Source: Mucispirillum schaedleri ASF457 (GTDB lineage: Bacteria > Chrysiogenota > Deferribacteres > Deferribacterales > Mucispirillaceae). Taken from it: a stretch of 64,000 nt of DNA. The notes under the pieces were generated by a model. The model was not told the DNA's origin. It was given only the letters and a program-made list of their open reading frames with translations, and did no database searches. This document shows, piece by piece, positions 2 through 59,725 of this stretch. How positions within the stretch are numbered: the stretch's first letter is position 1; the number at the start of each line of letters is the position of its first letter. Where the stretch lies: NCBI RefSeq assembly GCF_000487995.2, contig NZ_CP097562.1, positions 1,609,001 through 1,673,000 on the forward strand, in the 5' to 3' direction. Both the position numbers and the translations under genes were made by a program.

Positions 2-976
2 CAGCAGGAGCAGGCTAAAACTCAGGCAGAATTAAATGCAGAAAGAATGGCTGCTGTAATAAAGGCAGTAGGGCTTGATAAATTTACTGATTTGCTTGAA
101 GATATAGGCGATATAAAAAAACAGCTTGCTAATATGCAGAGCAATATAGCCGATAACATAGTTATAGATTTACCTGCAAAATTAAAAGATTATCATGCAC
201 TGTTTATTAAAAATGGTGTAGATGATATAATTTCTTACAGGTTATTAAAAGATATTGAAGCAAGAATTGAGGGAAAAGAGGCAACATCTGCTCAGATAAA
301 AAGCATAGCAGTAGATAAACTTGCAGAGCTTATACCTGTTGAGAAAAACTATTATGATGTTATGATTAATAAAATAGTGGCTCTTGCAGGTCCAACAGGT
401 GTTGGCAAAACTACAACTATTGCAAAAATTGCAGCTACTATGACATTAAAATACGGCAAAAAAGTATGCCTTATTACAGTTGATAATTTTAGAATAGGTG
501 CTGTTGAGCAGTTGAAAACTTATGCTGAAATAGTTAATCTTCCCCTTTATGTTGCCACAAGTCCTGAAGAGCTTTTGCGTGTTGTTGCAAAAGTGAAAGA
601 TAAATATGACAGTGTATTAATAGATTCTATGGGGCGTGGTCAGTTTGATACAGGTCAGATAACAGGCATTAGAGATTTTTTAAAAATAGATTCCCGCATA
701 ACTACGACATTAGTGCTTTCTATGGCATCAAACCATATAGAGCTTTATGATACATTTGAAAGATATGAGGTTTTAGAGCCAGATTATCTTATTTTTACAA
801 AGCTGGACGAAACGAAATATTTTGGACCGCTTATAAACATTCCTGTAAAAAAGAAGCTGCCGCTTTTGCTTGTTACAACAGGTCAGAATGTGCCTGATGA
901 TATGGAAATACCAGATGGCAGGAAAATTGCTAAGAGAATGTTACAGGAAATACCTACTTTATGGAGCGACAAATGA
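2..976 (+). CDS. flhF: Flagellar biosynthesis GTPase FlhF (5' partial)
   Basis: This is an SRP-type GTPase that, with FlhG, controls placement and number of flagella at the inner membrane. The reading frame is open back to base 2, so the true start and the N-terminal B domain lie outside the window. What is visible is the helical N domain followed by the G domain. The G1 loop reads GPTGVGKTTT, followed by DNFR (G2 region), DSMGR (the G3 position, usually D-x-x-G-R) and TKLDE (G4). The gene overlaps flhG by 4 bases if flhG starts at 973, which supports translational coupling in the motility operon. The family call is firm from the P-loop, the TKLDE motif and the flhG-fliA neighbourhood. Confidence 0.95.
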   Translation, partial: QQEQAKTQAELNAERMAAVIKAVGLDKFTDLLEDIGDIKKQLANMQSNIADNIVIDLPAKLKDYHALFIKNGVDDIISYRLLKDIEARIEGKEATSAQIKSIAVDKLAELIPVEKNYYDVMINKIVALAGPTGVGKTTTIAKIAATMTLKYGKKVCLITVDNFRIGAVEQLKTYAEIVNLPLYVATSPEELLRVVAKVKDKYDSVLIDSMGRGQFDTGQITGIRDFLKIDSRITTTLVLSMASNHIELYDTFERYEVLEPDYLIFTKLDETKYFGPLINIPVKKKLPLLLVTTGQNVPDDMEIPDGRKIAKRMLQEIPTLWSDK

Positions 977-55459: not shown

Positions 55460-56818
55460 ATGGAAAATAATTGGTTAGAGCGTTTCAGGGCGGAGTATAA
55501 GCCTTTATTAAAAGATAAGTATGATGAGTTTGAGTATGGGCTTGCATGCCCTAAATCTAAACATATCCGCATCCAGTCATCAAGAAATATTGATTATTTA
55601 AAAGAGCTTGAAAGTATATGTTCATTAGAAAAATTAAAAGAATATGATAATGTTTATAAAGCTGCAAAAAACAGTGAAAATATAGTAAACAGCATTTCTT
55701 TTCAAACTGGCGGCATATATATTATGAATCCATCATCTGTTGCACCAGCCAGTATATTAATGTCTTATATGGAAGAAAATCCTGTTATGCTTGATGTTTC
55801 TTCTGCTCCCGGTGGCAAAACATGTGCATTATCTGATATGAGTAACAGAAAAGGCGTAATAGTTGCTAATGAAATATCAGCAAGCCGTTTGAAATCACTT
55901 CACTTTAATCTGGAAAAATATGGTGCTTACAATGTAAAAACTGTTTCTATGGATGGCAGGCTTCTTCCAAATATTTTTGAAAATTCTTTTGATGGTATTC
56001 TGCTTGATGCACCATGCTCTAATGAAAATAAGATTTTCCGCAATAAAACTGTGCAGGCAGAGTGGAATAAAGAGCTTGTTGCAAGAATGGCAAATTTACA
56101 GCGTCAGTTAATAAAATCAGCCTTTTTATGTTTAAAGGAAGGCGGTGTTTTAGTTTATTCTACATGCACATTAAGTCTGGAAGAAAATGAATATGTAATA
56201 AAATATCTGCTTGATGAATTTGATAATGCAGAGCTTCTGCCATCAGGTGTTGACTATGGCAGGGGAATATCTGGAATAAATCATATTGATGAAAATGTTG
56301 CACGGATTATGCCTGATACTGATAAAATAGACGGTTTTTTTGCAGCAGCAGTTCGTAAAAAAGGCACTCTTATTCCTTATAATTTTATAAACTCTAAACT
56401 AAAAGAAAAGGAAAAAGATTTCTTTAAAAAATATTATCCAGCATTTTCTCATAATCACATATCAATCAGCGAATATGACAGACGGGGATATATAGAGACT
56501 GCTCCAGAAATCTTTAAAAAAGTAAGGTTTAAAAGGCGTGGTCTAAATATTTATAAAGATACAGGTAAACTTTTTGAGCCATCATGCCAGAGTGTATGGC
56601 AGTGGGGTTCTTTTGTTGAAGATAATATGAAATATGATATTTCAGCAGAATTGGCAGAAAATTTTTTGAAAGGGTTTGACATATCCTGTAATGATAATTA
56701 TAATAATGAACTTTTATTTTTTAACAATATTCCTGTCGGCTATGCTAAAAAAGTGGACAGTAGATTAAAAAATAAATTAGACAGATATTTTTTATACGGT
56801 AAAAATATAGAGTGGTGA
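55460..56818 (+). CDS. rRNA cytosine-C5 methyltransferase (RsmF/YebU-like)
   Basis: This Rossmann-fold SAM enzyme of the NOL1/NOP2/sun family probably modifies 16S rRNA. Motif I is MLDVSSAPGGKTCAL, motif IV DAPCSNENKIFRN has the release Cys, and motif VI VYSTCTLSLEENE has the catalytic Cys. FQTGGIYIMNPSSVAPASIL before motif I and the PUA-like C-terminal region (about 330-452) match the RsmF branch rather than RsmB, which has an N-terminal NusB domain. Length is 452 residues. The next gene follows by seven bases. Confidence 0.9.
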   Translation: MENNWLERFRAEYKPLLKDKYDEFEYGLACPKSKHIRIQSSRNIDYLKELESICSLEKLKEYDNVYKAAKNSENIVNSISFQTGGIYIMNPSSVAPASILMSYMEENPVMLDVSSAPGGKTCALSDMSNRKGVIVANEISASRLKSLHFNLEKYGAYNVKTVSMDGRLLPNIFENSFDGILLDAPCSNENKIFRNKTVQAEWNKELVARMANLQRQLIKSAFLCLKEGGVLVYSTCTLSLEENEYVIKYLLDEFDNAELLPSGVDYGRGISGINHIDENVARIMPDTDKIDGFFAAAVRKKGTLIPYNFINSKLKEKEKDFFKKYYPAFSHNHISISEYDRRGYIETAPEIFKKVRFKRRGLNIYKDTGKLFEPSCQSVWQWGSFVEDNMKYDISAELAENFLKGFDISCNDNYNNELLFFNNIPVGYAKKVDSRLKNKLDRYFLYGKNIEW

Positions 56819-56825
56819 AAAAATA

Positions 56826-58184
56826 ATGAAAGTATTATGCAGTATATTATGTGCATTAGTATTATCTTTTGGTATCAGCTATGCTTATGAAGAAATACCT
56901 GCTGATGCAAAAAGTCATACAGAAGATGTATCAAAACAGATGATAGCTTCTCAGGCACCTGCTGCAAAAAGCAGGCTTGGTAAAAATACTATTGTCAATT
57001 TATCTGCCAGCGGTGCAGAATTGTTACATGTTGTGCTTGTAGATAAATCTATTAAAAGGCTTTATATTGCAGTGCTTAATAATGATGGTATGGAAGTAAT
57101 TAAAGAGTTTCCTATCCTTACAGGCAGAGTGGATGGTAATAAAGTAAAACAAGGGGATGAAAAAACTCCAGAAGGTGTATATTTTGTTGTTTCATACTCA
57201 TCAGGTGATGAGCTTGTAAAAAAATACGGCAGCTATGCTTTAATATATGGAGCTGGCTCGTTTCCATTAAATTATCCTAATATTATTGATAAAATAGAGA
57301 AAAAAACAGGTGGCGGTATATGGCTGCATGGTGTTAAGCCTGATTTAGATAAAACATATACTCAAGGCTGTGTTGCCATGAATAACACTAATTTTGGGCT
57401 GCTTTATGATAAAATATCAATAAAAACACCAGTTATTATTGCAGAAAAGCTGTTATATTCTGATGATAAAGATTATGAAACATCAAGAAAACAACTGCTT
57501 AACACATTAAATTCATTTATTACTGCATGGCAGGATAATGATAAGGAAACTTTTAAAAGTTTAATTCACAGCAAATTTAAAACTTATAGTGGTGCAGATT
57601 ATAAAAAATATACTAATAACAAAACAAATTTAATGGATAAATATCCTGATAAAGTTATCCGCAACTATAATACAAAAATATTTATGAAAGATGATGACTA
57701 TACTGTTTTTGATACAAATCAGTATTACTGTGCTGCAAACCTTTCTACATATACTAATAAAAAATATTATTTTATAAAAGAAGACGGCAGATTAAAATTA
57801 ATCAGTGAAGAAACATCTTCTATGCCTGTTGCAAAAGCACCAGAACTTAATAATGAAATTAAATCATTTGTGGAAAACTGGGCTGCATCATGGAGAGCTC
57901 AGGATATTGAAAAATATATGGCTAATTATGATATAAAATTTAAAACAGATAAAGAAAACTATAATCAGTGGAAATCAAAAAAAACTACACTTTTTTCACA
58001 AGGCGAAAAAATATCACTTAATATATCAAACATTAAATGGTCTTATTCAGGTGGTGAATACAGAGTGGAATTTATACAGGAATATTCATCTGGCAGTGTA
58101 AGCGATAAAGGCAAAAAAATATTAACTCTTTCAGGCTGTCCATCATTTTTTAAAATTAAGTCTGAAATATGGAGAGAAATTTGA
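56826..58184 (+). CDS. Csd6/Pgp2-like L,D-transpeptidase-fold enzyme with two NTF2-like domains
   Basis: This protein is exported through an N-terminal signal peptide (MKVLCSILCALVLSFGISYA). The YkuD domain (about 60-205) has His168 in GGGIWLHGV and the catalytic Cys182 in YTQGCVAMNN. Two NTF2/SnoaL-like domains follow (about 220-330 and 335-452). In Helicobacter and Campylobacter this architecture, with an NTF2-like pocket, is Csd6/Pgp2, an L,D-carboxypeptidase trimming peptidoglycan tetrapeptides to tripeptides and needed for helical shape. Those have one NTF2-like domain; here I see two. The next gene is a Csd4/Pgp1 homologue, strengthening the call. Confidence 0.82.
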   Translation: MKVLCSILCALVLSFGISYAYEEIPADAKSHTEDVSKQMIASQAPAAKSRLGKNTIVNLSASGAELLHVVLVDKSIKRLYIAVLNNDGMEVIKEFPILTGRVDGNKVKQGDEKTPEGVYFVVSYSSGDELVKKYGSYALIYGAGSFPLNYPNIIDKIEKKTGGGIWLHGVKPDLDKTYTQGCVAMNNTNFGLLYDKISIKTPVIIAEKLLYSDDKDYETSRKQLLNTLNSFITAWQDNDKETFKSLIHSKFKTYSGADYKKYTNNKTNLMDKYPDKVIRNYNTKIFMKDDDYTVFDTNQYYCAANLSTYTNKKYYFIKEDGRLKLISEETSSMPVAKAPELNNEIKSFVENWAASWRAQDIEKYMANYDIKFKTDKENYNQWKSKKTTLFSQGEKISLNISNIKWSYSGGEYRVEFIQEYSSGSVSDKGKKILTLSGCPSFFKIKSEIWREI

Positions 58185-59725
58185 GAGTATTAATTTATAG
58201 TTTAGTAATTTTATTTTCTACAGCAGAATTTTTATATGCAGATGTAAAAAGACCAGATACTATAAAAGAAGTATTTTTTACAGGCACAAATCATGAGCTT
58301 GAAGTTTATAAAATATATGGCAGAAAGGATGGTCCTACTATGCTTATTATTGGCGGCATTCAAGGGGATGAGCCCGGGGGACTTTTATCTGCTGATTCAT
58401 ATGCTGATATAAAACTTGAAAAAGGTAATCTGATAGTCATACCACGCACAAATTTTTATTCCATTATGCTTTTTAACAGGGAAGTAAAAGGTGTTGATAT
58501 GAACAGGCTTTTTGATAAAGCTCCAAATGACTGGCAGGGAGATATTGTTAATAAAATAAAAGAATATATGAAAGAATCTGATATTTTTTTAAACCTGCAT
58601 GACGGCTGGGGATTTCACTATCCAGAACATATAAACTGGCATAAAAGTCCAGATAGATTTGGCTATTCTGTTATTGTAGATGAAGAAGAATTTACATGCA
58701 GTAATGGAACAACTTTAAAACTTGGAGAAATGGCAAAAAAAGCAATGGAAGCAGCAAATGCAAAAATCCCTGATGACGACCCTAAAAAACATTACTTTAA
58801 CACAGAAACAAACAAAAGCTCAAGCCGTTTTCAAAATATGAAAAAATCAGCCACATGGTATGCAGTGTCTGATTTATGTATCCCTGCTTTTGGTATAGAA
58901 GGCTCTAAAAATATGAAACTTGACAAAAATGTCCTGTATCATAATTATGTAATAAATGAGTTTATGAAAAATGCAGGTATAGAAATAGAATACCCTAACA
59001 CTCATACTTATGAGCCTGAATTTACTGGGGCAGTTATAAAAGTGCATAATGATGAGCTTTTTATCCGCAGTGGAAAAGTGCTGGAAGTGAAAAAAGGCAG
59101 TGTAATAAAGGTGACAGAAATATTTGCAAATCATAAGCGTGGCATAACATGCGATATTGTAGATTTTGGAAACTTAAATGACATAAATAAAGACTATAAA
59201 GTAGAAAAAGACAGCAGAATTATTTTCCGTAAAGATAATATTGTTATGGGCAGTGTTACTGTTAAAGCTGTTGAGCAGGTCAGTAATATAATAACAGCAG
59301 AAAATACTAAAAATAAAGAAATAGAAATACCTGTTAAAGAGCATAAACAGGTAGAATTGAGCAAAGAAGAAAGCAAAATCATTTTAGAGCCTAACATAAA
59401 ATATTTTCACTTAATTATTGATGGTAAAGATATACATATAAAAAATGGAGATAAAATCCATATAAAAGACAGCTCAAAAGTAGTATTTGTAAAACTTTTA
59501 AGCTCAAAAGTGCAGGACTATAATGTAGCTATTAATTTTAAGGGCTGGTTTCCTGCTGATATTTCTGCAAATATTGGTGATGACAGAGGGTATGAAATAA
59601 TTTTTCCACCTGCAAATATTTTAAAAAAATATTCTGTAGGTCAAAAAGGCAAGCTTTATCCAGTGGTCGCTCATGATGCTGCTAAAAAGCAGGATATAGC
59701 AAAAATTTTAGTAGAGCTTGATTAA
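58181..59725 (+). CDS. Csd4/Pgp1-like peptidoglycan D,L-carboxypeptidase (M14 metallopeptidase)
   Basis: This protein has a signal peptide (MRVLIYSLVILFSTAEFLYA). The start TTG 58181, with GGAGAG at 58171-58176 and a TTGA overlap, is better than ATG 58169, which lacks a ribosome-binding site. The M14 domain has zinc-ligand candidates Gln61 and Glu64 in GGIQGDEPGG and His140 in LNLHDGWGFH. Gln in place of the usual first His is a hallmark of Helicobacter Csd4. The C-terminal 260 residues form beta-rich modules (FTGAVIKVHNDELFIRSGKVLEV and so on), also as in Csd4. Csd4 cuts tripeptide stems to dipeptides, giving helical shape. It overlaps the Csd6-like gene. Confidence 0.85.
   Translation: MRVLIYSLVILFSTAEFLYADVKRPDTIKEVFFTGTNHELEVYKIYGRKDGPTMLIIGGIQGDEPGGLLSADSYADIKLEKGNLIVIPRTNFYSIMLFNREVKGVDMNRLFDKAPNDWQGDIVNKIKEYMKESDIFLNLHDGWGFHYPEHINWHKSPDRFGYSVIVDEEEFTCSNGTTLKLGEMAKKAMEAANAKIPDDDPKKHYFNTETNKSSSRFQNMKKSATWYAVSDLCIPAFGIEGSKNMKLDKNVLYHNYVINEFMKNAGIEIEYPNTHTYEPEFTGAVIKVHNDELFIRSGKVLEVKKGSVIKVTEIFANHKRGITCDIVDFGNLNDINKDYKVEKDSRIIFRKDNIVMGSVTVKAVEQVSNIITAENTKNKEIEIPVKEHKQVELSKEESKIILEPNIKYFHLIIDGKDIHIKNGDKIHIKDSSKVVFVKLLSSKVQDYNVAINFKGWFPADISANIGDDRGYEIIFPPANILKKYSVGQKGKLYPVVAHDAAKKQDIAKILVELD

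Follow-up and report, generated by a model that had tools for sequence, protein, structure and literature searches.

What is known of how helical cell shape arises comes largely from Helicobacter and Campylobacter, in which the genes of the two peptidoglycan-trimming enzymes lie at distant sites. In Campylobacter jejuni, Pgp2 converts tetrapeptide stems to tripeptides and thereby feeds Pgp1, which converts tripeptides to dipeptides; loss of either enzyme yields rods (PMC3961634). Deferribacterota, the phylum of Mucispirillum, are described as curved or spiral (PMC12887300). We analyzed a window of 64,000 nucleotides from Mucispirillum schaedleri ASF457, whose genome is a single contig of 2.35 Mb, and found two overlapping genes, here called ORF A and ORF B, that resemble csd6/pgp2/bd1075 and csd4/pgp1, respectively. 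The locus raises the question of whether an operon of trimming enzymes sets the curvature of this organism and whether such an operon is a portable curvature cassette.

The overlapping genes and their products

ORF A (56826..58184, + strand; positions are those of the window) encodes a predicted LD-carboxypeptidase of 452 aa, comprising a putative N-terminal secretion signal, a YkuD domain, and two tandem NTF2-like domains. ORF B (58169..59725, + strand) encodes a predicted DL-carboxypeptidase of 518 aa, with a catalytic domain, a beta-barrel, and an Ig-like domain. The first 16 nt of ORF B are also the last 16 nt of ORF A (58169..58184, + strand), an overlap that suggests coupled translation of the two genes. 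Other Mucispirillum have the same overlap of 16 nt, and in most other families of the phylum it is 1-4 nt. The pair is preceded by an RsmF/RsmB-type rRNA methyltransferase gene and followed by thiE-thiL, all tightly packed on one strand. A candidate sigma-70 promoter, TTGACA-17-TATAAT (56676..56704, + strand), was recognized by consensus match alone (12/12) about 120 nt upstream of ORF A, within the 3' end of the preceding gene. Both hexamers are kept in 8/8 Mucispirillum genomes; across the region, promoter-like sites were not in excess (40 vs 39.9 in shuffles).

The Pfam search assigned ORF A to YkuD (58.6 bits, cut-off 23.4) and matched two further stretches to Cds6_C (84.1 bits, cut-off 27), the family named for the NTF2-like domain found in Csd6. 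The putative signal peptide, read from the sequence, consists of Met-Lys and a hydrophobic stretch to SYA. The YkuD catalytic domain (57030..57440, + strand; aa 69-205) carries the triad His168-Gly169-Cys182, with Cys182 in the motif YTQGCVAM, and all three residues are invariant in 69/69 homologues. Two residues past the nucleophile, LD-transpeptidases usually have Arg, whereas Csd6 and Pgp2 have Ala (PMC8938487). ORF A has Ala184, and its 69 homologues have Ala, Val, Ser, Thr, or Gly at this position, never Arg. Among solved structures, the closest relatives of ORF A in a PDB search were Bd1075 (E = 7e-38), Pgp2, and Csd6. The AlphaFold model of ORF A (pLDDT 91, pTM 0.86) retrieved Bd1075, Csd6, and Pgp2 far ahead of all other matches in Foldseek, and the structural alignment gave Z scores of 29.3, 25.9, and 25.0, respectively, with the next best at 15.9. 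Residues 1-50, where a counterpart of the N-terminal dimerization region of the Csd6/Pgp2 family (absent in Bd1075) would be expected, were modeled with low confidence. By its sequence, ORF A is a member of the Csd6/Pgp2 family with active-site residues of the carboxypeptidase type rather than the transpeptidase type. Apart from ORF A, the genome has a single YkuD gene (genome positions 1311143-1311550, G000:C1, outside the window), which encodes a protein of about 180 aa with the motif WTEGCIAV and no NTF2 domain. It also lacks Arg after the Cys; thus, the genome shows no classical LD-transpeptidase.

ORF B matched Peptidase_M99, the Csd4-specific Pfam family, with 111.4 bits (cut-off 27). 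In Csd4, the metal ligands are Gln46, Glu49, and His128, the general base is Glu222, and Arg86 and Arg94 also belong to the site (PMC4220969). These residues align with Gln65, Glu68, His144, Glu244, Arg104, and Arg113 of ORF B, which are the predicted ligands, base, and arginines of its catalytic domain (58313..58987, + strand; aa 49-273). Gln65 lies in the motif GGIQGDE and takes the place of the His that is the first ligand in ordinary M14 carboxypeptidases (HxxE...H). Conservation of this Gln among ORF B homologues is partly by construction, since the residue was written into one of the two patterns used for the scan; in addition, the homologue of the deep-branching genome G032 belongs to the same family and has His at this position, so Gln alone is not diagnostic of M99. 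Csd4 was retrieved with ORF B in the PDB search at E = 5e-22. The AlphaFold model of ORF B (pLDDT 87) aligned with Csd4 over residues 43-518, with 367 aligned residues from all three domains and a Z score of 32.0 (next best 21.8); we interpret the overall rmsd, 11.8 A, as a difference in domain orientation.

These results bear on an earlier sequence-only reading of the locus. It described a YkuD-fold protein with Cys182 in YTQGCVAM and two NTF2-like domains, encoded by a gene overlapping that of an M14 peptidase with a Gln zinc ligand. The domain content of ORF A and the gene overlap were borne out, as were the linkage of the genes and the presence of an additional NTF2-like domain. The Gln ligand also stands, although the family is more precisely Peptidase_M99. 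The expected superposition of both predicted structures on their Csd counterparts was obtained, and the alternative kinship with ordinary YkuD and M14 enzymes was not found: both products fall into Csd-specific Pfam families and carry carboxypeptidase-type residues.

Tandem NTF2-like domains of ORF A

The inner, extra copy, NTF2-1 (57474..57824, + strand; aa 217-333), was delimited by an HMM match and is followed by the C-terminal copy, NTF2-2 (57843..58178, + strand; aa 340-451). The two copies are mutually homologous (HHalign 98.9%), and Cds6_C is present in 69/69 ORF A homologues. The NTF2 domains of Bd1075, Csd6, and Pgp2 scored 85.9, 49.0, and 43.4 bits, respectively, against NTF2-2 and lower, 54.9, 35.2, and 24.8 bits, against NTF2-1. 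The pocket residues of Pgp2 tested by mutation are Y233, F242, K257, K307, and E324 (PMC8038945); they correspond to Y364, F372, K386, K431, and E447 of NTF2-2, which are kept in 67-69 of the 69 homologues. In Bd1075, mutation showed that Y274 and W303 are needed for targeting (PMC8938487), and these residues correspond to Y420 and W449. Thus, NTF2-2 matches Pgp2 and Bd1075 at each of the seven pocket or targeting residues that were examined by mutation in those enzymes. The equivalent of Trp449 occurs in 63/69 homologues; hence, contrary to the earlier description, W303 is not specific to Bdellovibrio.

In the structural alignment, the single NTF2 domain of Bd1075 or Csd6 aligned onto NTF2-1 (model range 53..333), so that NTF2-1 appears to occupy the docking site. 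The docking position thus appears to be held by NTF2-1, and the pocket signature is carried by NTF2-2. The inner copies all group together in the domain trees, with indecisive support (69 and 81), which agrees with a single old duplication; tree tests did not reject a placement of the known single-NTF2 enzymes outside the C-terminal copies (p-AU 0.66 and 0.68).

Variants of this architecture were also seen. In a sister genus (L030 and L032, genus g2) and in L078 and L113, NTF2-1 is partly deleted, with its first helices gone and NTF2-2 intact. At L116, from Neomarinimicrobiota, the YkuD protein encoded next to the M99 gene has three NTF2-like domains.

Distribution in Deferribacterota and other phyla

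Thirty relatives were searched, with the Mucispirillum genome itself excluded, and both genes adjoin in the same order in 24/24 genomes that have them; no relative carried just one of the two. Given this constancy and the PDB E-values, neither the identity of ORF A and ORF B nor their pairing is due to chance. Across 51 Deferribacterota genomes, 44 have both genes, seven have neither, and none has one alone. The genes are linked in 41 of the 44, and the three unlinked cases constitute one deep family (f10). G032 (L127, L128; 2,928,377 bp), a deep-branching member of this family, has a Csd6-like protein with one NTF2 domain and no terminal Trp, in addition to the His first ligand and the unlinked genes; this condition is possibly an ancestral or a reduced state.

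The absences reflect at least three apparent independent co-losses, in the Flexistipes lineage, in family f5, and in genome G014, counted among genomes 93% or more complete. Two genomes of the Flexistipes group, G023 (Flexistipes sinusarabici) and G016, lack the pair and also lack flagellin; their sister G037 retains both genes. In family f5 and G014, the pair is absent and flagellin is kept. Regarding morphology, the pair-bearing Calditerrivibrio is vibrio-shaped and the pair-bearing Denitrovibrio is vibrioid with corkscrew movement. F. sinusarabici, which lacks the pair, is a non-motile species whose cells are described as straight to acutely bent, so the correlation of the pair with shape is imperfect. 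Bactofilin is present in 50/51 Deferribacterota genomes and in every nearly complete one, including those without the pair. The single bactofilin gene (CcmA-type) of M. schaedleri ASF457 is located outside the window, at genome positions 1446720-1447007 (G000:C1); in several family f6 genomes, the bactofilin gene lies about 12 kb from the operon.

For the survey beyond the phylum, named genomes were scanned with ORF B alone, and the best 80 of 520 relatives were kept. A YkuD-NTF2 gene is near the M99 gene in 73 of these 80 loci, adjoining it in 48 and one gene apart in 25; in four of the remaining seven loci, the sequence starts at or only shortly before the M99 gene. The adjoining form occurs in Nitrospirota, Gammaproteobacteria, and Neomarinimicrobiota. 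The form with one gene between occurs mainly in Desulfobacterota and the loosely named 'Deltaproteobacteria'. The M99 tree (a quick tree) and the YkuD tree largely track these groups. With Campylobacterota represented by PDB chains and papers only, both trees place the window genes inside Deferribacterota, apart from Csd4 and Csd6/Pgp2.

The intervening gene of the Desulfobacterota-type loci (for example, L076:3456-4259, L083:4994-5785, L085:5122-5865, L104:5070-5963, and L118:4934-5893) encodes a protein whose C-terminal domain is conserved and which also shows a single apparent membrane helix and a coiled-coil-like segment. It had no Pfam match and no convincing homologue in Mucispirillum, and its product is a candidate membrane partner of both enzymes.

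Proposed role, alternatives, and known systems

Taken together, the pair most probably forms a translationally coupled cell-curvature operon in which LD-carboxypeptidase trimming is followed by DL-carboxypeptidase trimming. Family membership, architecture, residues, gene overlap, co-occurrence, and co-loss were observed directly. The sequence-only reading attributed the curved body of this organism to the pair; we infer both activities, their order, the role of the pocket, and the effect on shape from the characterized homologues. ORF A would be exported to the periplasm, where Cys182 and His168 would cut the terminal D-Ala off tetrapeptide stems to give tripeptides. ORF B, as a zinc enzyme (Gln65/Glu68/His144), would then take meso-DAP off the tripeptides, and the resulting dipeptide stems could no longer be cross-linked. 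NTF2-2 would serve as the peptidoglycan-binding and localizing pocket known from Pgp2 and Bd1075; by conjecture, NTF2-1 sits against the catalytic domain and shifts the pocket of NTF2-2 outwards. If trimming took place along only one side or one path, the wall would relax there and a bend or helix would become fixed, giving the curved to spiral cells that typify the phylum. A precedent for one-sided trimming is Bd1075, which acts on the convex side of Bdellovibrio under NTF2 targeting (PMC8938487). As for the tetrapeptide supply, no S11-type DD-carboxypeptidase was found in this genome, and several M23 peptidases were; Helicobacter pylori is likewise reported to have several M23 peptidases and no S11-type enzyme (PMC3310797). 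The M23 peptidases could be the suppliers in Mucispirillum. C. jejuni Pgp1 and Pgp2 jointly failed to make Escherichia coli helical (PMC3961634); the two enzymes may thus not be enough on their own.

The pair may instead trim stems mainly for peptidoglycan turnover, recycling, or muropeptide release at host mucus, without setting shape. Carboxypeptidase activity alone is no predictor of shape, the pair is missing from some flagellated genomes, and bactofilin, another shape factor, is kept in nearly complete genomes even where the pair is gone. However, besides gut species, free-living thermophiles and marine lineages also keep the pair, and all characterized homologues (Csd4, Pgp1, Csd6, Pgp2, and Bd1075) affect shape, which makes a turnover role unlikely. 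It is considerably less plausible that ORF A is an LD-transpeptidase, forming 3-3 cross-links or attaching outer-membrane lipoproteins, and that its pairing with ORF B is incidental. The YkuD fold is common to LD-transpeptidases, and Bacillus subtilis YkuD gave a Z score of 14.9 against the ORF A model; nevertheless, the top matches are LD-carboxypeptidases, ORF A has NTF2 domains, and the pairing is phylum-wide. An ordinary LD-transpeptidase was rejected because position 184 is Ala, not Arg, and Arg occurs there in none of the 69 homologues (comparison as in PMC8938487).

The origin of the genes was considered as well. M. schaedleri is reported to carry 97 putative transfers from Epsilonproteobacteria, including a T6SS (PMC5285517), which would fit a recent acquisition of the module from Helicobacter or Campylobacter. 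The operon is nevertheless found in nearly all families of the phylum, both trees separate the window genes from Csd4 and Csd6/Pgp2, and the linked genes and two NTF2 domains are unlike Csd6/Pgp2. We consider this origin the most improbable of the alternatives, and recent transfer from Campylobacterota was rejected on the trees and the phylum-wide presence.

The curvature-operon reading of the Mucispirillum pair can be extended, tentatively and with less than even confidence, to a general scheme. The widespread form would be a two-pocket LD-carboxypeptidase co-translated with its DL-carboxypeptidase partner as a self-contained curvature cassette across several phyla, with NTF2-1 as an old paralogue that took over docking and NTF2-2 as the outer pocket for peptidoglycan binding and convex-side targeting. 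Secondary simplification would then account for the single NTF2 domain and the unlinked genes in Helicobacter, Campylobacter, and Bdellovibrio. Because the overlapping operon is kept or lost jointly across a phylum of curved bacteria and recurs elsewhere, its standing as a portable curvature cassette can be tested directly. In the known enzymes, one NTF2 domain serves both docking and wall recognition, two roles that the tandem domains would separate, and with the conserved C-terminal Trp, a targeting feature called Bdellovibrio-specific is in fact widespread.

The occurrence of such a module outside Campylobacterota, as the sequence-only reading had it, is correct but not new. Pgp1 homologues outside Epsilonproteobacteria were noted in 2012 (PMC3310789), and neighboring pgp1/pgp2 homologues within 300 bp were reported in 2014 for Nitratiruptor, Nautilia, a Desulfococcus species, and Persephonella (PMC3961634). 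The 2014 report covered four genomes without domain architecture, and Deferribacterota, Nitrospirota, Gammaproteobacteria, and Neomarinimicrobiota were not named in it. In the openly searchable literature, where priority is uncertain, neither the tandem NTF2 architecture nor the split between docking position and pocket signature was found described; on the same basis, three further points appear to be new: the all-or-none pairing across the phylum, with co-loss, the wide occurrence of the overlapping operon, and the finding that W303 is not confined to Bdellovibrio.

Among known systems, C. jejuni Pgp1/Pgp2 (cjj81176_1344/cjj81176_0915) represent the same enzyme families with the same active sites, and the same tetra-tri-di trimming is expected in Mucispirillum (PMC3961634). 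In C. jejuni, however, the two genes are far apart rather than overlapping, and Pgp2 has one NTF2 domain, whereas ORF A has two. For H. pylori, the three domains of Csd4 (HP1075), its Gln/Glu/His site, Glu222, Arg86, and Arg94 are all matched by ORF B, and the Cys-His-Gly triad and NTF2 pocket of Csd6 (HP0518) are matched by ORF A; by contrast, csd4 and csd6 are unlinked by locus number, and the single NTF2 domain of Csd6 ends ahead of the conserved Trp. Bd1075 of Bdellovibrio bacteriovorus (PDB 7O21) is the best sequence and fold match of ORF A and shares its C-terminal Trp (Trp303), but it has a single NTF2 domain and a monocistronic gene, and the YkuD tree groups it with the Desulfobacterota-type enzymes, not with those of Deferribacterota.
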